A DNA stretch of 41,614 bases from Actinomycetota bacterium (GTDB lineage Bacteria; Actinomycetota; Acidimicrobiia; IMCC26256; PALSA-610). The number at the start of each line of letters is the position of its first letter. Within the stretch, counting starts at the first letter, position 1. A program made the position numbers and the translations under genes. Of the stretch, positions 4,483 to 33,964 are shown in pieces. The notes under the pieces are model-generated. The model searched no databases, was not told where the DNA came from, and worked only from the letters and a program-made list of their open reading frames with translations. The DNA is taken from assembly GCA_005772765.1 (NCBI GenBank), contig SXIR01000033.1:1-41614 (forward strand). The letters run 5' to 3'.

Positions 4483-6168
4483 ATGCAGCACGTCATGTGG
4501 CGGAGAGTTGTCCAGCGCGCGTTCCTGGTCGTCGTGATCAGCGGCCTCATCGCCACATCAGCGATCGACCGGCGGCCTGACCCGGCTGCAGCGGCTCGCA
4601 CCGGCCGGCTCGTTCCTGCGACCGGAACGTTGTTCGGGGCTTGGATCGAACGAGACGTCACCACCGTCGACGGGTTCAAGGGCCTCGTCCTCGAGCGCGA
4701 AGCCCAAATCGGTCGCCGCTTCGACATCGTCAACCACTTCTATCCATTCACGAACTCGTTCCCGCGCTGGCACGAATCCTGGGATGTCCAGATGGGCCGC
4801 ATCCCGATGATCTCGTGGAACGGCACCGACACCGCGGCGATCAACCGCGGCGACCACGACGCCATCATCATGCAGCGAGCGATCAACGTCCGCGACTTCG
4901 GTCACGACCTGTTCATGCGCTGGTTCTGGGAAATGGACGGCGGCTACAACCGAGCGGTTGCAGTATCGCCAGCGAGTTACGTCGCAGCATGGAACCGCGT
5001 GCGTTCGATCTTCATCGCCGCCGGAGCGACGAACGCGGTGTGGGTATGGTGCCCGACGTCGTGGGGCTTCGAGCAAGGCAACGCGGCGTCGTGGTATCCG
5101 GGCGACGCGAACGTCGACTGGGTGTGCGCCGACGGCTACAACTTCGCGCCGACCCGCGACGGCGCGCAGTGGCAAACCTGGGACGACATCTATCGCGAAG
5201 CCCACGACTTCGCGGTCGCCCGCAGCAAACCGCTCATGGCGGGCGAATGGGGCGCGCTCGAACGAAATGCCGGTGAAAAGGCCGCCTGGTACGACGCCGC
5301 GCGCAACACCATCAAGGCGTCGATGCCCAACATGGCTGCAATCGTCGCGTTCGACGAACGCAAGTGGCACGGCGACGAGAATCGTTACTTCAACTGGGAG
5401 GTCGACTCCACCGAGAAGTCGCTCATGGCCTACATGCGGTGGGGACGCGACCCGTACTTCCGTACGCGCGGTCCGTTGATCCTGCCGACGGTGTCGGCCG
5501 GCGACGCCAACGGATGGGAGGCCGACACGGCCGACCCGACGGTCTCCGTGCCGATCACGCTGTCGGCGCCGTCGCCCGATGTCGTGAGCGTGAACGTCAG
5601 CACCGTGCCGGTCACTGCCGCCGCGACCGCCGACTACGTCACGGTGAACAAGGTCGTCAAGTTCAATCCCGGGATTACCCGCGTGTTCGTCGACATCCGA
5701 CTGAAAGCCGACAGTCTCGACGAAGCAGCCGAGACGTTGAACGTCGCCGTCTCGAACCCGAGTGCCAGTGCGACACTCGGCGACGCATCCGGATTGGTCA
5801 CGATCACCGACGAAGACCCGAACACTTCGCCCGTGCGCATCTACGCGTCGAACAACTCCGTGTGGGAAGGCGGTAGCTACGACCGCACGGCCCGCTTCAC
5901 GGTGTCCCTGAACCATGACTCGGCCACGACTGTGAGCGTCAGGTGGGCGTTGTCATCCACCTCGGCAGTCCGCCTGAGTGATTGGGCCGGCACCACGAGT
6001 GGCACCCTGACGTTCCAGCCGGGACAAAACTTCAAGCAGATCTCGGTCAAGGTGCTTCCCGACTGGCTCGACGAGGCCAACGAGACCGTGACGGTCACCC
6101 TGTCGAACGCGACCGGCGCCACCATTGCCGATACCGCCGGAATCCTCACCATCGTCGACGACGACTGA
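4483..6168 (+). CDS. Secreted GH26-type glycoside hydrolase with two Calx-beta domains (copy 2)
   Basis: A 561-residue paralogue of the preceding gene with the same architecture: signal peptide (residues 1-38, core FLVVVISGLIAT, ending PAAAA), GH26-like barrel (about 45-330) and two Calx-beta domains (about 335-447 and 450-561). Catalytic candidates are E150 in MRWFWEMDG and E255 in MAGEWGALE. Long segments such as KPLMAGEWGALER and the SWYPGD...VDWVCA block are shared with copy 1, while the surface regions differ, so the duplication is old. The start could be ATG 4483 or ATG 4495; both give a signal peptide and neither has a clear ribosome-binding site. Spacing of 76 bases after copy 1 suggests cotranscription. 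The final Calx-beta strand ends with the same DDD-stop pattern as copy 1. Confidence 0.84.
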   Translation: MQHVMWRRVVQRAFLVVVISGLIATSAIDRRPDPAAAARTGRLVPATGTLFGAWIERDVTTVDGFKGLVLEREAQIGRRFDIVNHFYPFTNSFPRWHESWDVQMGRIPMISWNGTDTAAINRGDHDAIIMQRAINVRDFGHDLFMRWFWEMDGGYNRAVAVSPASYVAAWNRVRSIFIAAGATNAVWVWCPTSWGFEQGNAASWYPGDANVDWVCADGYNFAPTRDGAQWQTWDDIYREAHDFAVARSKPLMAGEWGALERNAGEKAAWYDAARNTIKASMPNMAAIVAFDERKWHGDENRYFNWEVDSTEKSLMAYMRWGRDPYFRTRGPLILPTVSAGDANGWEADTADPTVSVPITLSAPSPDVVSVNVSTVPVTAAATADYVTVNKVVKFNPGITRVFVDIRLKADSLDEAAETLNVAVSNPSASATLGDASGLVTITDEDPNTSPVRIYASNNSVWEGGSYDRTARFTVSLNHDSATTVSVRWALSSTSAVRLSDWAGTTSGTLTFQPGQNFKQISVKVLPDWLDEANETVTVTLSNATGATIADTAGILTIVDDD

Positions 6169-27539: not shown

Positions 27540-27623
27540 GAACCGTCGTCCCAGAACCGTCGTCCCAGAACCGTCGTCCCAGAACCGTCGTCCCAGAACC
27601 GTCGTCCCAGAACCGTCGTCTCA
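27540..27623. repeat. Tandem 14-bp repeat, six units
   Basis: Six head-to-tail copies of GAACCGTCGTCCCA occupy 84 bases. Five are identical; the sixth ends TCTCA. It fills the gap between the stop of the ferritin-like gene (27504-27506) and that of the TauD-type gene, whose TGA (27621-27623, minus) is the last triplet of unit six. There are no spacers, so it is not a CRISPR array. Confidence 0.95.
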
Positions 27624-28550
27624 GTCTGCGGCGCGCCCGCGGGGCGCCTCTCCCGCCACGGTCGTGCGCGTCATGAACCGTCGGTGTCCCGTGAAATCGG
27701 CCATGGCCATGTGCTGCACGCACCGATTGTCCCAGAAGGCAAGATCACCGGCGCTCCAACGCCACCGGATCGTGAACGCATCCTGCGTGGAGTGTGCGAA
27801 CAGGAAGTCGAGCAACGGGCGTTGTTCGTGCTGGTGGAAGCCGCCAAGCGCAATCGTGTACTGCTGATTGACGTAGAGGCACTCCCGACCGGTCTCGCCG
27901 TGCGTGCGAACCACAGGATGGGCTTGTTCGCGCAGTGCCTCGTCGGAGGTCGTGACCTTCATACCCTTGAACAGGTCGTGCACTGCCTGCATCTTCGGTG
28001 CGTAGCCGTCACGAGCCGAATGCACGCCAACGAGCCCGCGCAGCATCGATTGCATCGCATCCGACAGCGCTGCAAAGGCGTGGTACTGGTTCGCCCACAG
28101 CGTGTCGCCCCCGAAGGGCGGAACCTCGACGGCGTAGAGCAACGAGCCGAAAGGTGGTTCGGGTAAGAACGAGAAGTCCGAGTGCCACAGCGAACCGAAC
28201 CCGAACCGTTGACGTTCCTCGGCTTCGCGCACGACCGCGATGACCTCGGGATGGTCGGCCACGGGTTCGACGAACGGCACCGGCGAGTAGGGACCGAAAC
28301 GGCGCGAGAACCGCACCTGCTGGTCGGGGGTCAGGTGCTGGCCCCGAAAGAAGACGACGTGATGGTCGAGTACGGCTCGGCGGATCTCGCTCACGACCTC
28401 GTCGTCGAGTTCCTGGGAGAGATCGACGTTGCTGATCACCGCGCCTCCGGCACCCGACCAGCGTTCGACGCCGATGCGCCGATAGGTCACAGTCGGCGGA
28501 GCCGCGGCCACGGGCACCAGTTCCTCGGGCATCGTCTGCATCGGGGTCAT
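27621..28550 (-). CDS. TauD/TfdA-family Fe(II)/2-oxoglutarate dioxygenase
   Basis: A 309-residue cytosolic dioxygenase. The metal triad is H123 and D125 in LWHSDFSFL and H280 in WDNRCVQHMA; R291 or R295 in HRRFMTRTTV binds 2-oxoglutarate. VVFFRGQHLTPDQQVRFSRRFG near residue 65 and GGDTLWANQYHAF near 147 are further family features. Members release sulfite from taurine or alkylsulfates, or cleave aryloxyacids and similar compounds. With a sulfatase in the window, use of organosulfur compounds is possible but unproven. The ATG at 28550 was taken; ATGs 3 and 6 codons later are possible. The last codon runs into the 14-bp tandem repeat. It is divergent from the amidohydrolase with only 35 bases between starts. 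Confidence 0.9.
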   Translation of the reverse strand: MTPMQTMPEELVPVAAAPPTVTYRRIGVERWSGAGGAVISNVDLSQELDDEVVSEIRRAVLDHHVVFFRGQHLTPDQQVRFSRRFGPYSPVPFVEPVADHPEVIAVVREAEERQRFGFGSLWHSDFSFLPEPPFGSLLYAVEVPPFGGDTLWANQYHAFAALSDAMQSMLRGLVGVHSARDGYAPKMQAVHDLFKGMKVTTSDEALREQAHPVVRTHGETGRECLYVNQQYTIALGGFHQHEQRPLLDFLFAHSTQDAFTIRWRWSAGDLAFWDNRCVQHMAMADFTGHRRFMTRTTVAGEAPRGRAAD

Positions 28551-28560
28551 GGTCGCAAGT

Positions 28561-28576
28561 GTACGAACCGCCGTAC
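28561..28576. promoter_or_regulatory. Possible operator between dioxygenase and amidohydrolase
   Basis: GTACG (28561-28565) and CGTAC (28572-28576) form an inverted repeat with a 6-base spacer, centred in the 35-base gap between the two divergent start codons. A protein bound there could control both genes. The arms are short, so chance is possible. Confidence 0.3.
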
Positions 28577-28585
28577 GATGCGGTC

Positions 28586-30334
28586 ATGGCGAGAACCCTG
28601 GTTCGTAACGGCCTGCTGGTCAACGGCACGGGCGCGCCCGCACACGTCGCTGACCTGGTGATCGACGGTGAGCACATCGCCGAGGTCGGGCGCGGCCTAC
28701 GACCTGACGGCATCGACGCGACGATCGACGCCGGCGGCCTCATCGTGACACCCGGGTTCGTCGACATCCACACGCACTTCGACGGCCAGGTCACCTGGGA
28801 TCCGATTGTCGCGCCCAGCAGCATCCACGGGGTCACGAGCCTCGTCATGGGGAATTGCGGTGTCGGCTTCGCGCCGGCTCGCCCCAGCGACGCCGATCAC
28901 GAGTGGCTCATCGGACTCCTCGAAGGTGTCGAAGACATCCCCGGCACGGCGCTGGCCGAAGGGCTCACCTGGGATTGGGAGACCTTCTCCGATTACCTCG
29001 ACGCGCTCGACCGCCGGTCGTGGACGCTCGATGTCGCGACCCAGGTCGCGCACGCTCCACTGCGCGCGTACGTAATGGGACGCCGAGGCGCCGACCCCGA
29101 CGAGGCCCCCACCGACGACGAACTGCGAATGATGTACGAACACACCCTCGACGCGGTGCAAGCTGGCGCGCTCGGCTTCACCACCTCGCGGACGTATGTG
29201 CATCGGACGCGAGACGGCAGCGCGCTGGGGACGCGTTTCTCCTCGGCGGACGAACTCATCGCCATTGCCTCGGCACTGCGCGACGCGGGGACGGGCGTGA
29301 TCCAAATGATCAGCGACGCCTACCAGTCGACCGATACCGACTTCGCGTACGCCGAACTCGACCTGATGCGCGAACTCGCTCGTGCGGTGCGTCGGCCGCT
29401 CAGCATGACCGTGCAACAGAATCTCGACACCCCCGATCGGTGGCGGGAGATGCTCGACTTCGCGGCAGGTTGTCGCGCCGAAGGACTCGACGTGAAGGCT
29501 CAGGTTGCGCCGCGCCCGATTGGCCTCCTCTCGGGCTACACCGCTGGCGTCCATCCCTTCATGCTCTGTTCGGCGTATCACGAAGTCGCGTCACTGCCGC
29601 TCGCCGAACGCGTGGTGGCGCTCCGCGACCCCGAGCGGCGTGCGCGCGTCATCGGCCAGCATGGCGCCCCGCACGACGGCATGGTCGGCCAGATCACCCA
29701 TAGCTGGGATCTGCTGTTTCCCCTGACCGATCCGGTCGACTACGAACCCAGTCCCGAAGCGTCGGTCGCCGGAATCGCTGCACGCGAGGGTCGTGCACCC
29801 ACCGAAGTGGCCTACGACCTCCTGCTCCAACACGACGGCACACAGTTGCTGTACCTCCCGTTGTTCAACTATGCCCGCCGCGACCTCAGCGACACGCGCG
29901 AGATGCTCGTGTCGAACGACGTCGTGCTCGGACTCTCCGATGCCGGAGCGCACTGCGGTGTGATCTGCGACGGGTCCATGCCGACGACCGCGCTCGCACT
30001 TTGGACCCATCGTCGACGCGGCGACGGCCTCCCCCTCGAACGAATGGTGCATCACCTGACCCAGCGGACTGCGCGCCACGTCGGATGGAACGATCGCGGC
30101 GTCCTCGCACCGGGAATGCTGGCCGACATCAACGTGATCGATCTGGATGCGCTCGGCGCGCACCCGCCGACGATCGTGCACGACCTCCCCGCCGGCGGGC
30201 GGCGCCTCATGCAGACCGCCAGCGGGTACCGCCACACGTTCAAACGAGGAGTCGAGACCTTCCGCGACGGCAACGCGACCGGGGCGCTCCCCGGCCGACT
30301 CGTTCGGGGCGCTCAGGCGGCGTCATCCGCCTGA
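28586..30334 (+). CDS. N-acyl-D-amino-acid deacylase-type amidohydrolase
   Basis: A 582-residue metal-dependent hydrolase of the amidohydrolase 3 / D-aminoacylase group. The N-terminal small beta-sandwich (TLVRNGLLVNGTGAPAHVADLVIDGEHIAEVG) leads into the metal-binding TPGFVDIHTHFDGQVTWDP (H62, H64). VTSLVMGNCGVGFAP follows, and LGLSDAGAHCGVICDGSMPTT near residue 455 gives the late Asp/His site. The C-terminal APGMLADINVIDLDALGAH closes the sandwich. Such enzymes remove N-acyl groups from D-amino acids or open related ring amides. The ATG at 28586 starts the first strand; the frame is open nine codons further upstream into the intergenic gap. It is divergent from the TauD-type gene. Confidence 0.88.
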   Translation: MARTLVRNGLLVNGTGAPAHVADLVIDGEHIAEVGRGLRPDGIDATIDAGGLIVTPGFVDIHTHFDGQVTWDPIVAPSSIHGVTSLVMGNCGVGFAPARPSDADHEWLIGLLEGVEDIPGTALAEGLTWDWETFSDYLDALDRRSWTLDVATQVAHAPLRAYVMGRRGADPDEAPTDDELRMMYEHTLDAVQAGALGFTTSRTYVHRTRDGSALGTRFSSADELIAIASALRDAGTGVIQMISDAYQSTDTDFAYAELDLMRELARAVRRPLSMTVQQNLDTPDRWREMLDFAAGCRAEGLDVKAQVAPRPIGLLSGYTAGVHPFMLCSAYHEVASLPLAERVVALRDPERRARVIGQHGAPHDGMVGQITHSWDLLFPLTDPVDYEPSPEASVAGIAAREGRAPTEVAYDLLLQHDGTQLLYLPLFNYARRDLSDTREMLVSNDVVLGLSDAGAHCGVICDGSMPTTALALWTHRRRGDGLPLERMVHHLTQRTARHVGWNDRGVLAPGMLADINVIDLDALGAHPPTIVHDLPAGGRRLMQTASGYRHTFKRGVETFRDGNATGALPGRLVRGAQAASSA

Positions 30335-30444
30335 GCAACCGTTCGACCGGCATGCCGGCGGCGTCGCGCACCACGCCTCCTTCGGCCGCGATGTCGCGCG
30401 TCTAGGTTCGACCGATCGCTGTCCTCCTCGCACTCGCGTCGGCG

Positions 30445-31695
30445 TTGACCTACGGCACCGCCGACTTCTTCGGCGGCGTCGCGACGCGACGCGCGAATCG
30501 AGTGCTCAGCGTTGTGCTGACGACCCAAACCGCCGGGCTCATCTTCGTCCTCCTCGTGCTGCCGTTCGTGGAGGGCACCTTGCTCGCCCGCGATGCCGCC
30601 ATCGCCGCACTCGGTGGTCTCGGTGGCGTGCTCGGTCTGCTCTGCTTCTACCGCAGCTTGGCGATCGGCCCGATGAGCATCGCCGCGCCGCTCTCGGCCG
30701 TGCTGGCCGCGTTGGTTCCGCTCGGCACCGGTTTGGCCCTCGGCGAACGACCCGACGCAATCGCATGGGTCGGGATCCCGCTCGCGCTGGTGGCCATCGT
30801 GTTGTTCTCTCGCGAACCCGACGACAGCAAGGCGGCGGGCGCCAACTCGCGCGTCATCGTCTTGGCCGTGCTCGCCGGGATCGGGTTCGGTGGGTTCTTC
30901 GTCGCACTCGACAAGGTCAGCGCCGACGCTGGGCTGTGGCCGGTCGTGATCGGTCGGGCGGTCTCGGCGCTCGCCGTGGGAATCGTCGTGATCGCCACCA
31001 AGTCACCCGCGCGACTCGGACGATCCGCGTTCCCGGTGGCCCTCGTCTGTGGCGTGTTCGACACGCTCGCCAACGTCTTCATTCTGCTGGCCAACCGCGA
31101 AGGCGATCTGTCGACCGTCGCGGTGGTGTCGTCGTTGTACCCGGCCGCGACTGTCAGCCTCGCGCTCGTCGTGCTCCACGAACCATTCACGCGAGCCCGC
31201 CAACTGGCCGCGGCGGCGGCGCTCGGCGCCGTGACGTTGATCGCGCTGGGCCAGGGCGCGGAGGCAACCGACGCTTCGCCCGAAACCAAGTCGCGACAAA
31301 TCGACGTCGCGGACCGGGGCGCCGCGGTGATGGGGTTCGACCTGAAGACAACGACGCACGTGTTTCGAGAGAACGATTTCGGCGGCGAACAGACCGTGAC
31401 CGCTGATGACCCGAACGACACCATCGAGATCGCCAACATCCGATCCCATCTCGCGGCTGTGGCTGTCCGCTTCGGCGACGGCGACTTCTCGGATCCGGGC
31501 CACATCCACGGCGACGACATGCCGGGACTTGTCGAGCTCGGCGCGGCTGGCGACGCGCTCGACGTTGCGTACGTCGAGGTCGACGCAGGTGCTCGCATCA
31601 TCTACCGGAGCGATCGACCGGACGTCGTCGACGCGATTCACCGGTGGTTCGCCGCGCAGCGGCGCGATCACGGCGATCACGCCTCGGGCGGTTGA
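30445..31695 (+). CDS. EamA/DMT-type transporter fused to a soluble C-terminal domain; anomalous start
   Basis: Residues 1-272 (from the TTG at 30445) are an EamA-like permease with about nine visible helices, beginning within TYGTADFFGGVATRR, the end of the usual first helix. Residues ~284-416 are a separate soluble domain, VADRGAAVMGFDLKTTTHVF...GDFSDPGHIHGDDMPGL...RSDRPDVVDAIHRWFAAQRRDHGDHA, seen elsewhere as a stand-alone protein often labelled (doubtfully) aspartate carbamoyltransferase. The join is in frame. The first helix clearly starts further upstream (ATC 30415: IAVLLALASAL), but no ATG, GTG or TTG exists there before an in-frame TAG at 30403; an ATG at 30391 lies beyond that stop. 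A rare ATC start, a lost start codon or a sequence error is possible. The 3' end overlaps the next gene by 19 bases, convergently. Confidence 0.75.
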   Translation: MTYGTADFFGGVATRRANRVLSVVLTTQTAGLIFVLLVLPFVEGTLLARDAAIAALGGLGGVLGLLCFYRSLAIGPMSIAAPLSAVLAALVPLGTGLALGERPDAIAWVGIPLALVAIVLFSREPDDSKAAGANSRVIVLAVLAGIGFGGFFVALDKVSADAGLWPVVIGRAVSALAVGIVVIATKSPARLGRSAFPVALVCGVFDTLANVFILLANREGDLSTVAVVSSLYPAATVSLALVVLHEPFTRARQLAAAAALGAVTLIALGQGAEATDASPETKSRQIDVADRGAAVMGFDLKTTTHVFRENDFGGEQTVTADDPNDTIEIANIRSHLAAVAVRFGDGDFSDPGHIHGDDMPGLVELGAAGDALDVAYVEVDAGARIIYRSDRPDVVDAIHRWFAAQRRDHGDHASGG

Positions 31696-32552
31696 GCTCC
31701 CAGCCCGGCGAGCAGGCCCGATTCGACGATCGCCTTCGCCAACGGGCGCGCCGCACGTCGAAGTGACGCACAGCCATCGGGTCCGAGCACCGCGTACGGG
31801 GCCGAGGCCAGCCGGTCGGTATCGCGCTCGATCTGCGCACGGAGTTCGCGACCGGCGTGGGTGAACGCACCCGAGCCATCGACCAGGTCGCGATCGGCCA
31901 GCCGCACAATCGCGGCTTCCCATTCGTCGTCCGACCAGGCACGGGTGGCCTGGAGCGCTCGCCGCGGGACCTCGCCGGACGCGGCGTGCAGCACGAGCGC
32001 GTCGAGCCCGGTGAGCTCCGCACTCAACAGCAGCGCGATGTGGCCGTCACCCCGGAACTCGCGCAGCAACGTTTGCGCGTGCCACAACACCAGATGCGGT
32101 TCGTCCGGCCATGCCAGCGCGGCGTGGCCGGCGAACAGAGCCCGACCTTCGCTCGCGAGCATCGCCGAACGCGCGGCGATGCTCGCGAGCTTCGCTGCCG
32201 CTGCGACCTCGTCGCTGTCGATCCATGGTCCTCCCGCACGACGCAACGCGGCATCAGCGGCGACCAGACGAGCCCGACACATCGCTTCGGGGGTCGCAGA
32301 AGACCACGCGGCTTGCATCGCCGAACGCACCAAGTCCGGGTGGAAGTTGAAGAAGGCGGCAACGACCACCTCTGCGCTGACGGCGCCCATTGGCGCCGCG
32401 CGCGACGCGAAGTAGCCGGTGCGACCGGTGACCCCAATCGCCGCGTAAGCGTCCGTCGCCTCGGGCGCGAAGTAGATCATGCCGTGAATCGGCTCCAGGG
32501 TCCGCCACGTCTGTCGGGCGATGATCGGGTCGAAGGCAGGCACGGCACGCAT
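31677..32552 (-). CDS. SCO6745-family protein
   Basis: A 291-residue soluble protein of the actinobacterial SCO6745 family, recognised from TWRTLEPIHGMIYFAPEATDAYAAIGVTGRTGYFASRAAPMGAVSAEVVVAAFFNFHPDLVRSAM at the N terminus and GHAALAWPDEPHLVLWHAQTLLREFRGDGHIALLLSAELTGLDALVLHAASG in the middle. The last third (WSDDEWEAAIVRLADRDLVDGSGAFTHAGRELRAQIERDTDRLA) is a winged-helix-like segment. The biochemical role of the family is not established. The start is the ATG at 32552. Its 3' end overlaps the transporter gene tail-to-tail. The divergent aminotransferase begins 54 bases from its start. Confidence 0.87.
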   Translation of the reverse strand: MRAVPAFDPIIARQTWRTLEPIHGMIYFAPEATDAYAAIGVTGRTGYFASRAAPMGAVSAEVVVAAFFNFHPDLVRSAMQAAWSSATPEAMCRARLVAADAALRRAGGPWIDSDEVAAAAKLASIAARSAMLASEGRALFAGHAALAWPDEPHLVLWHAQTLLREFRGDGHIALLLSAELTGLDALVLHAASGEVPRRALQATRAWSDDEWEAAIVRLADRDLVDGSGAFTHAGRELRAQIERDTDRLASAPYAVLGPDGCASLRRAARPLAKAIVESGLLAGLGAQPPEA

Positions 32553-32605
32553 CCTCGCACGCTGACCATGAGGCCGTGCGTCGCTCGGACGGGCAGAATG
32601 CTGCC

Positions 32606-33964
32606 ATGACCCTCTCGACCGACGAACTCGTCGACCTCGCTCGCAAACACCTTTGGTTACATATGGCGCCCCAGACTGGCGATGCGATGACGGTCATCGA
32701 GCGCGGCGAGGGTTGCTACCTCTGGGACACCGAGGGCCGCCGCTACCTCGACGGCCTCGCGGGGCTGTTCACGGTCAACGTCGGTCACGGCCGGGCCGAC
32801 ATCGCGGCTGCGGCGACCGCGCAGGCCGGAGACCTCGCTTACTTTCCGATCTGGAGCAACGCACACCCGCGCGCCATCGAACTTGCCGCACGTCTGTGCG
32901 ATCTGGCGCCGGACAACCTGAATCGTGTGTTCTTCACGAGCGGCGGCTCCGAAGCAGTCGATACAGCGTGGAAACTTGCCCGCAACCATTTCAAGGCGAT
33001 CGGACAGCCGCAACGAACGAAGGTTGTCGCCCGCCACTACGCGTACCACGGAACGACGATGGGGGCATTGTCGATCACCGGCGTACCCGAGATTCGCAAT
33101 CAGTTCGAACCGTTGATCCCTGGCGTCTTCCACGCGCAGCCTGCGTACCCGTACCGGTGCGCGTTCTGTGACAACGCTTGTTCGCTGCAATGCGCCAACT
33201 ACATCGAGCGCATCGTGTTGGCCGAAGGGCCTGAGACCATCGCTGCGGTGTTCGTCGAACCCGTGCAGAACACCGGCGGGTCACTCGTACCCCCCGAGGG
33301 CTACATGCAGCGCGTCCGCGAGATCTGCGATGAGCACGGAATTCTGCTCGTCTCCGACGAAGTGATCTGTGCGTTCGGGCGCGTCGGCGCCTGGTTCGGC
33401 GCACAGCGGTTCGATTACGAGGCCGACATCTTGACGTTCGCCAAGGGTGTGACGAGTGGATACGCGCCCCTCGGCGGGGCGCTCGTTTCCGATCGGGTCG
33501 CAGAGCCGTTCCTCGATGGTCGAGCCGACTTCCTCCACGGGTTCACCTTTGGCGGACACCCGGTGAGTTGCGCCGTGGCGCTCGCCAACCTCGACGTGAT
33601 GGAGCGAGAAGACCTCCCCGGACGGGTGCGGGACAACGAGGCGTTGTTCCGCTCCGAACTCGACGCGCTGAGCGACATTCCGATCGTCGGCGACATTCGC
33701 GGCATCGGCTACTTCTACAGCATCGAGCTGGTTCGCAATCGCGCGACCCGAGAACACCTCTCCGAACGGGAGTGTCGTGAGGTGCTCAAGGGCTTCGTCG
33801 GACCACGCCTGCTCGACCTTGGCTTGATCTGTCGGGCCGACGATCGTGCGGAGCCCGTCGTGGTGTTGTCGCCGCCGCTGGTCGCCGGACCAGACGAGTT
33901 TGCCGAGATCGGTCGAGCGTTGCGCACCGCACTCAGCGAGGCGGCCGAGCGCATCGCGTCGTGA
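32606..33964 (+). CDS. Class III (omega) aminotransferase, second copy
   Basis: A 452-residue PLP aminotransferase. Landmarks are LDGLAGLFTVNVGHGRADIA (48-67), VFFTSGGSEAVDTAWKLAR (108-126), ARHYAYHGTTMGALSITG, AAVFVEPVQNTGG, LLVSDEVICAFGRVGAWFG (D251), and the lysine in LTFAKGVTSGYAPLGG (K280). YPYRCAFCDNACSLQCANYIE carries four cysteines (185, 188, 192, 196) in the segment where this group usually has a YRCPF motif. The ATG at 32606 begins a typical N terminus. It resembles amine- or omega-amino-acid:pyruvate transaminases more than GabT. It is only distantly similar to the aminotransferase at 15945. The following NTF2-like gene overlaps its stop (GTGA). Confidence 0.9.
   Translation: MTLSTDELVDLARKHLWLHMAPQTGDAMTVIERGEGCYLWDTEGRRYLDGLAGLFTVNVGHGRADIAAAATAQAGDLAYFPIWSNAHPRAIELAARLCDLAPDNLNRVFFTSGGSEAVDTAWKLARNHFKAIGQPQRTKVVARHYAYHGTTMGALSITGVPEIRNQFEPLIPGVFHAQPAYPYRCAFCDNACSLQCANYIERIVLAEGPETIAAVFVEPVQNTGGSLVPPEGYMQRVREICDEHGILLVSDEVICAFGRVGAWFGAQRFDYEADILTFAKGVTSGYAPLGGALVSDRVAEPFLDGRADFLHGFTFGGHPVSCAVALANLDVMEREDLPGRVRDNEALFRSELDALSDIPIVGDIRGIGYFYSIELVRNRATREHLSERECREVLKGFVGPRLLDLGLICRADDRAEPVVVLSPPLVAGPDEFAEIGRALRTALSEAAERIAS

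Follow-up and report, generated by a model that had tools for sequence, protein, structure and literature searches.

What does it mean when a membrane transporter and a soluble domain that is otherwise met on its own are encoded by one reading frame? A gene in a 41,614-nucleotide stretch of DNA from an Actinomycetota bacterium (hereafter, the window) raises this question. The original prediction held that an EamA permease is fused here to a domain of a poorly annotated family, and that the fusion would place the domain at the membrane and link it to transport. We asked whether the gene is genuine, where it begins, on which side of the membrane the domain would lie, and what the arrangement says about the family.

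The fusion gene, its start codon and its surroundings

A single uninterrupted frame on the forward strand encodes a complete EamA permease followed by a soluble domain of ~125 residues. The open frame from 30445 to 31695 has 416 codons and lies within a stop-to-stop frame of 429 codons that begins at 30406. Two stretches within the first ~270 residues match Pfam EamA (PF00892), with a score of 69 bits (cut-off 28.2), and the permease part is 61% and 60% identical to the stand-alone EamA proteins of two congeners, G001 and G002, respectively. Third-position GC is 0.86 in the EamA part, 0.80 in the domain, and 0.81 in the neighbouring genes, and the codon-position pattern is similar on either side of the join and in those neighbours. 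Other frames of the domain show no coding pattern, and nothing at the join thus points to a frameshift, the error that had been named as a possible flaw. The claim that a full permease is joined in frame to a soluble domain is borne out.

The start codon originally proposed, the TTG at 30445, does not hold up as well. Ten codons 5′ of it, an ATC at 30415 stands in the alignment where more distant family relatives have ATG or GTG (M-AILLALASAIVFG versus I-AVLLALASALTYG), and the aligned eamA codon is also ATC in G001 and G002 (window 30403–30447; L018 1459–1503; L019 1459–1503). Neither congener has an ATG, GTG, or TTG within the first 30 codons of eamA, and all three genomes have an in-frame TAG four codons before the ATC (30403 in the window). 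Because the window and both congeners share an ATC where relatives have ATG or GTG, and because a start at the TTG would split helix 1 in half, eamA probably begins at this ATC in all three. The alignment suggests a non-canonical start codon conserved in the genus; that a membrane transporter should probably start with ATC throughout one genus is a second point of interest of this locus. Table 1 collects the features.

Table 1. Positions in the window of the fusion gene, its parts, and the adjoining genes
Feature	Positions	Strand	Basis or remark
Amidohydrolase	28559..30334	+	Upstream of the fusion; adjoins eamA in G002 too; 76% identity
Whole fusion gene, likely ATC start	30415..31695	+	426 codons, stop TGA 31693–31695; open frame and start alignment
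EamA permease part	30415..31256	+	Pfam PF00892; ten predicted helices; N-out/C-out by charge
TTG, start first proposed	30445..30447	+	Probably internal, within helix 1; alignment with relatives
Short linker, helix 10 to domain	31257..31293	+	EamA proteins of congeners end here; residues 269–286 (TTG-start protein) of low model confidence
Soluble domain, VMPF / IHGxxMPG family, including family linker RQIDVADRGAAV	31294..31692	+	Alignments A2 and A4; AlphaFold2
ATG, putative internal start	31330..31332	+	Invariant Met of VM(P)F, 53/53 relatives
His of TTHxF, alignment residue 22	31357..31359	+	53/53 relatives
Conserved His, residue 52	31447..31449	+	53/53 relatives
HGDDM core, His 72 and Met 76	31507..31521	+	52/53 and 53/53 relatives
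Conserved His 116 (A-I-H-R-W-F)	31639..31641	+	52/53 relatives
Conserved His 126 (DHG)	31669..31671	+	53/53 relatives
SCO6745-family gene	31677..32552	-	NCBIfam NF047719; tail to tail with the fusion; not at this place in congeners
Class III aminotransferase	32576..33964	+	Downstream of the fusion; adjoins eamA in G001 too; 77% identity

The genes on both flanks of the fusion are native to the genus. Between 23544 and 33964, the window carries a cluster kept in the genus (GS-like, PuuD-like, P450, TauD-like, amidohydrolase, EamA, and class III aminotransferase) that resembles a gamma-glutamyl amine degradation set. Its order in G001 runs GS-like, PuuD-like, P450, TauD-like, EamA, and class III aminotransferase, and in G002 PuuD-like, P450, TauD-like, amidohydrolase, and EamA. 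The EamA proteins of both congeners stand alone and end right after helix 10; in the window, the same cluster has the domain joined to EamA and a SCO6745-family gene between the fusion and the aminotransferase. G002 has its SCO6745 ortholog on another contig. The permease probably keeps its role in the cluster, as a carrier for a small amine or a compound resembling an amino acid. A 14-base unit (GAACCGTCGTCCCA) is repeated in tandem at the TauD-like gene's 3′ edge (27540–27624), with 6.1 copies and 98% matches.

The soluble domain and its relatives

The last ~125 residues have 48–60% identical counterparts in many phyla, with homologues in Actinomycetota, Gemmatimonadota, Pseudomonadota, Chloroflexota, and one cyanobacterium. 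One scan with an alignment of ten relatives as query returned 440 relatives; the window domain as a single query found none in genome contigs or viral contigs, and no phage or viral-contig relative was found. Close to home the domain is rare: it was not found in 13 other genomes of the same family, and it occurs in only six others among 395 genomes sampled from the class, some being partial. That the domain is otherwise a separate small protein therefore applies to other organisms; the window's own assembly (80% complete, 233 contigs) has no second copy.

In nearly all relatives that we read, the linker RQxEVAxRGxxVMPFDL is preceded by one export element (signal peptide, lipobox, or membrane anchor), and none of these proteins is polytopic. 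Two (L050 and L096) have no export signal in the frame read, possibly through frame errors. Aligned relatives give the longer linker consensus RQxEVAxRGxxVMPFDLxxTTHxF, for which the window has SRQIDVADRGAAVMGFDLKTTTHVF. Homology begins at the RQ, ~31294, upstream of the ATG at 31330. The window domain has no N-terminal anchor, signal peptide, or lipobox of its own, and the permease stands in that position. The window protein is a variant of this exported family, which we call VMPF / IHGxxMPG after its motifs. A membrane location was presented as a new clue to the family, and it loses that value with nearly all relatives read already exported or anchored. One further locus (L120; G698:C175, 4728–4856 onward) encodes a lipobox and the domain's first third, continuing in frame into a trimethylamine methyltransferase-like (MttB-like) protein, and is possibly a chimera of a metagenome-assembled genome or another fusion.

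The annotation of free-standing relatives was rightly called doubtful: the records NZ_AP019784.1 and NZ_CP080769.1 name family members "aspartate carbamoyltransferase". A reading as true aspartate carbamoyltransferase (PyrB) is unsupported by profiles, with no such Pfam or NCBIfam match for the domain and no such Pfam match for nine relatives. The soluble domain matched nothing in Pfam, NCBIfam, or PDB sequences; weak profile matches to designed chlorophyll proteins in the PDB are not credible. A literature search returned no paper on any family member. AlphaFold2 models the domain with a mean pLDDT of 87.5 as beta-beta-alpha twice, and in a full-length model the domain is as confident as alone and the membrane part unreliable. 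A fold search of the PDB and a viral library gave no significant match for the domain model. The best viral matches (TM 0.33–0.38) were to a Prp/YsxB-like cysteine protease fold, which we rejected for a family that has no conserved Cys.

The window domain keeps 32 of the 35 columns conserved at 95%, with all five conserved His and both Met intact. It departs at P14G, Q45E, and L48N, so that VMPF reads VMGF; three departures are among the most in any of the 54 sequences. Metal binding, which had been suggested for the His-rich DHGDHA end, is plausible, but only the first His of that end is invariant, and the five core His and two Met are better candidates.

The search for the domain and its neighbours in other genomes also gave the family a genetic setting. 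A MarR-family gene lies directly upstream, ending just before the domain gene, at 35 of 80 neighbour loci (L034–L113; raw counts, with many loci closely related and the 35 not independent cases), with 45–74% identity to one probe. Loci with this neighbour include Actinomycetota, Rubrobacter, and Chloroflexota, and the MarR-family gene (one close group) and the domain gene likely form an operon of a regulator and an exported protein. The probe had no match in the window's genome, which says little for a query fragment against an assembly 80% complete. A copper-type P-ATPase gene is found within 6 kb at 6 of the 80 loci, against ~0.5 expected by our own estimate, which assumes about two such genes per 5-Mb genome. 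Multicopper oxidase genes occur near L049 and L090, a Metal_resist protein near L049, and a cupredoxin-like protein near L033; in Cupriavidus pinatubonensis, genes for a heavy-metal ATPase, YHS, and DUF2933 lie upstream of the family member. L049 (Hyphomonadaceae) also adjoins a YHS/HMBD P-ATPase, and a long His/Met-rich stretch (MSHEEMMQHC...) precedes its domain, before position 6001. Loci with copper-gene neighbours are a minority, most loci being without metal-gene neighbours, and none of the window genes near the fusion is a copper gene.

This neighbourhood of stand-alone members suggests metal or stress handling outside the cell. Conserved His and Met, taken together with MarR, copper-gene, and metal-gene neighbours, make extracytoplasmic metal handling our leading guess for the family. 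These residues and part of the gene neighbourhoods fit copper-binding periplasmic proteins; the domain model has no significant fold match. A bolder version, that the exported family is an extracytoplasmic copper handling or sensing module captured here by a permease whose transport it gates, strikes us as improbable.

Topology and rival readings of the fusion

Read from the ATC at 30415, the permease part accommodates ten hydrophobic segments (the number of helices was imposed). With ten helices, Lys and Arg divide between the two faces 12:4 in the window protein, 9:3 in G001, and 9:4 in G002; in the window protein, the 12 lie in the loops after odd-numbered helices and the 4 on the opposite face. 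By the positive-inside rule, this distribution predicts an N-out/C-out protein, which would make the permease C-terminus and the attached domain extracytoplasmic. Such a placement agrees with the exported or anchored state of the relatives. One could instead picture the domain working inside the cell on a cytoplasmic C-terminus, the kind of C-terminus that the DMT-family fusion SepJ has (PMC12096826). Yet the Lys and Arg distribution is opposite in the window protein and in both congeners, and the domain's relatives reach the outside by signals of their own, and we regard an inward-facing domain as quite unlikely.

The fusion is probably real. A chimeric contig, in which eamA and the domain gene come from different organisms, would be in keeping with a draft genome of 233 contigs and 80% completeness, with the absence of both the SCO6745 gene and the domain at this place in congeners, and with the possible similar chimera in another draft, G698, where a third of the domain runs into the MttB-like protein. 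However, the genes on both sides belong to the genus and follow the cluster order, the frame continues across the join, which falls between the last helix and the family linker, and GC and codon pattern are even, so that we hold an assembly artefact to be improbable. Still less can be said for a domain translated separately from ATG 31330 or GTG 31327 and unattached to the permease, one of the outcomes named beforehand as fatal to the fusion. An in-frame ATG is indeed present at 31330, but such a product would lose the conserved linker RGxxV, begin at a Met that is internal and invariant in VMPF across the family (53/53 relatives), and be left without any export signal; moreover, no ribosome-binding-like sequence is apparent before this ATG. 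We consider separate translation highly improbable.

If the fusion is real, does it reveal the family's true partner? The domain could bind a substrate or metal on the outer side, regulating the permease or supplying it. An in-frame fusion to a conserved domain, which the charge count would put at the permease's outer mouth, speaks for such coupling. But the fusion is known from one species, and the proposed link to transport draws on that fusion and on none of the relatives read, and none of these carries the domain on a polytopic protein. In the neighbour count, EamA does not figure with the most frequent families, and stand-alone members accompany MarR regulators and some metal genes instead. 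Functional coupling thus appears unlikely, if somewhat less so than an artefact or an inward-facing domain, and it is unnecessary to explain the arrangement.

We give about an even chance to a species-specific gene fusion by anchor swap with the domain outside the cell, its metal role, most likely in copper, being less certain. On the simplest account, a local insertion brought in the domain without its anchor, and the domain came to be read on from eamA. Helix 10 of the native EamA permease takes the place of the single anchor of the domain's relatives, as homology begins at the RQ (31294) and the domain's own anchor is absent. Thus placed, the domain, carried by the permease's last helix, would fold on the outer side and perform the same job as its relatives. 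That job may be to bind or buffer a metal ion with the conserved His and Met, copper being the likeliest, perhaps within a response to metal or redox stress.

What is gained here concerns the family more than the fusion. Members of this exported family occur in a few hundred bacterial genomes, some members being recorded under the wrong enzyme name, and neither Pfam nor NCBIfam has a model for it. It offers a testable setting in the adjoining MarR gene, the metal genes near some members, and the conserved His and Met.

Comparison with known systems

Two known kinds of protein are here combined in a new architecture, observed in one species only. With EamA / DMT permeases (PF00892), the window protein has in common the Pfam match in two stretches, the ten hydrophobic segments that can be placed in it, and genus orthologs of 60–61% identity; it differs from them in its C-terminal soluble domain of ~125 residues, its N-out/C-out charge pattern, and its probable ATC start. 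With the exported family annotated as "aspartate carbamoyltransferase" (for example, WP_221067177.1 and WP_220632079.1), it shares 43–60% identity over the whole domain and linker and the same five His and two Met. Stand-alone members of that family bring a single anchor or a signal peptide of their own, whereas the window protein has helix 10 of the permease instead, and VMGF for VMPF. SepJ of filamentous cyanobacteria is likewise a DMT-type permease with a large soluble extension, which in that case consists of an N-terminal coiled coil and a linker, the C-terminus being cytoplasmic (PMC12096826). SepJ and the window protein are thus alike in being DMT permeases that carry a soluble part, but they differ in the end that bears it and in the predicted side of the C-terminus.
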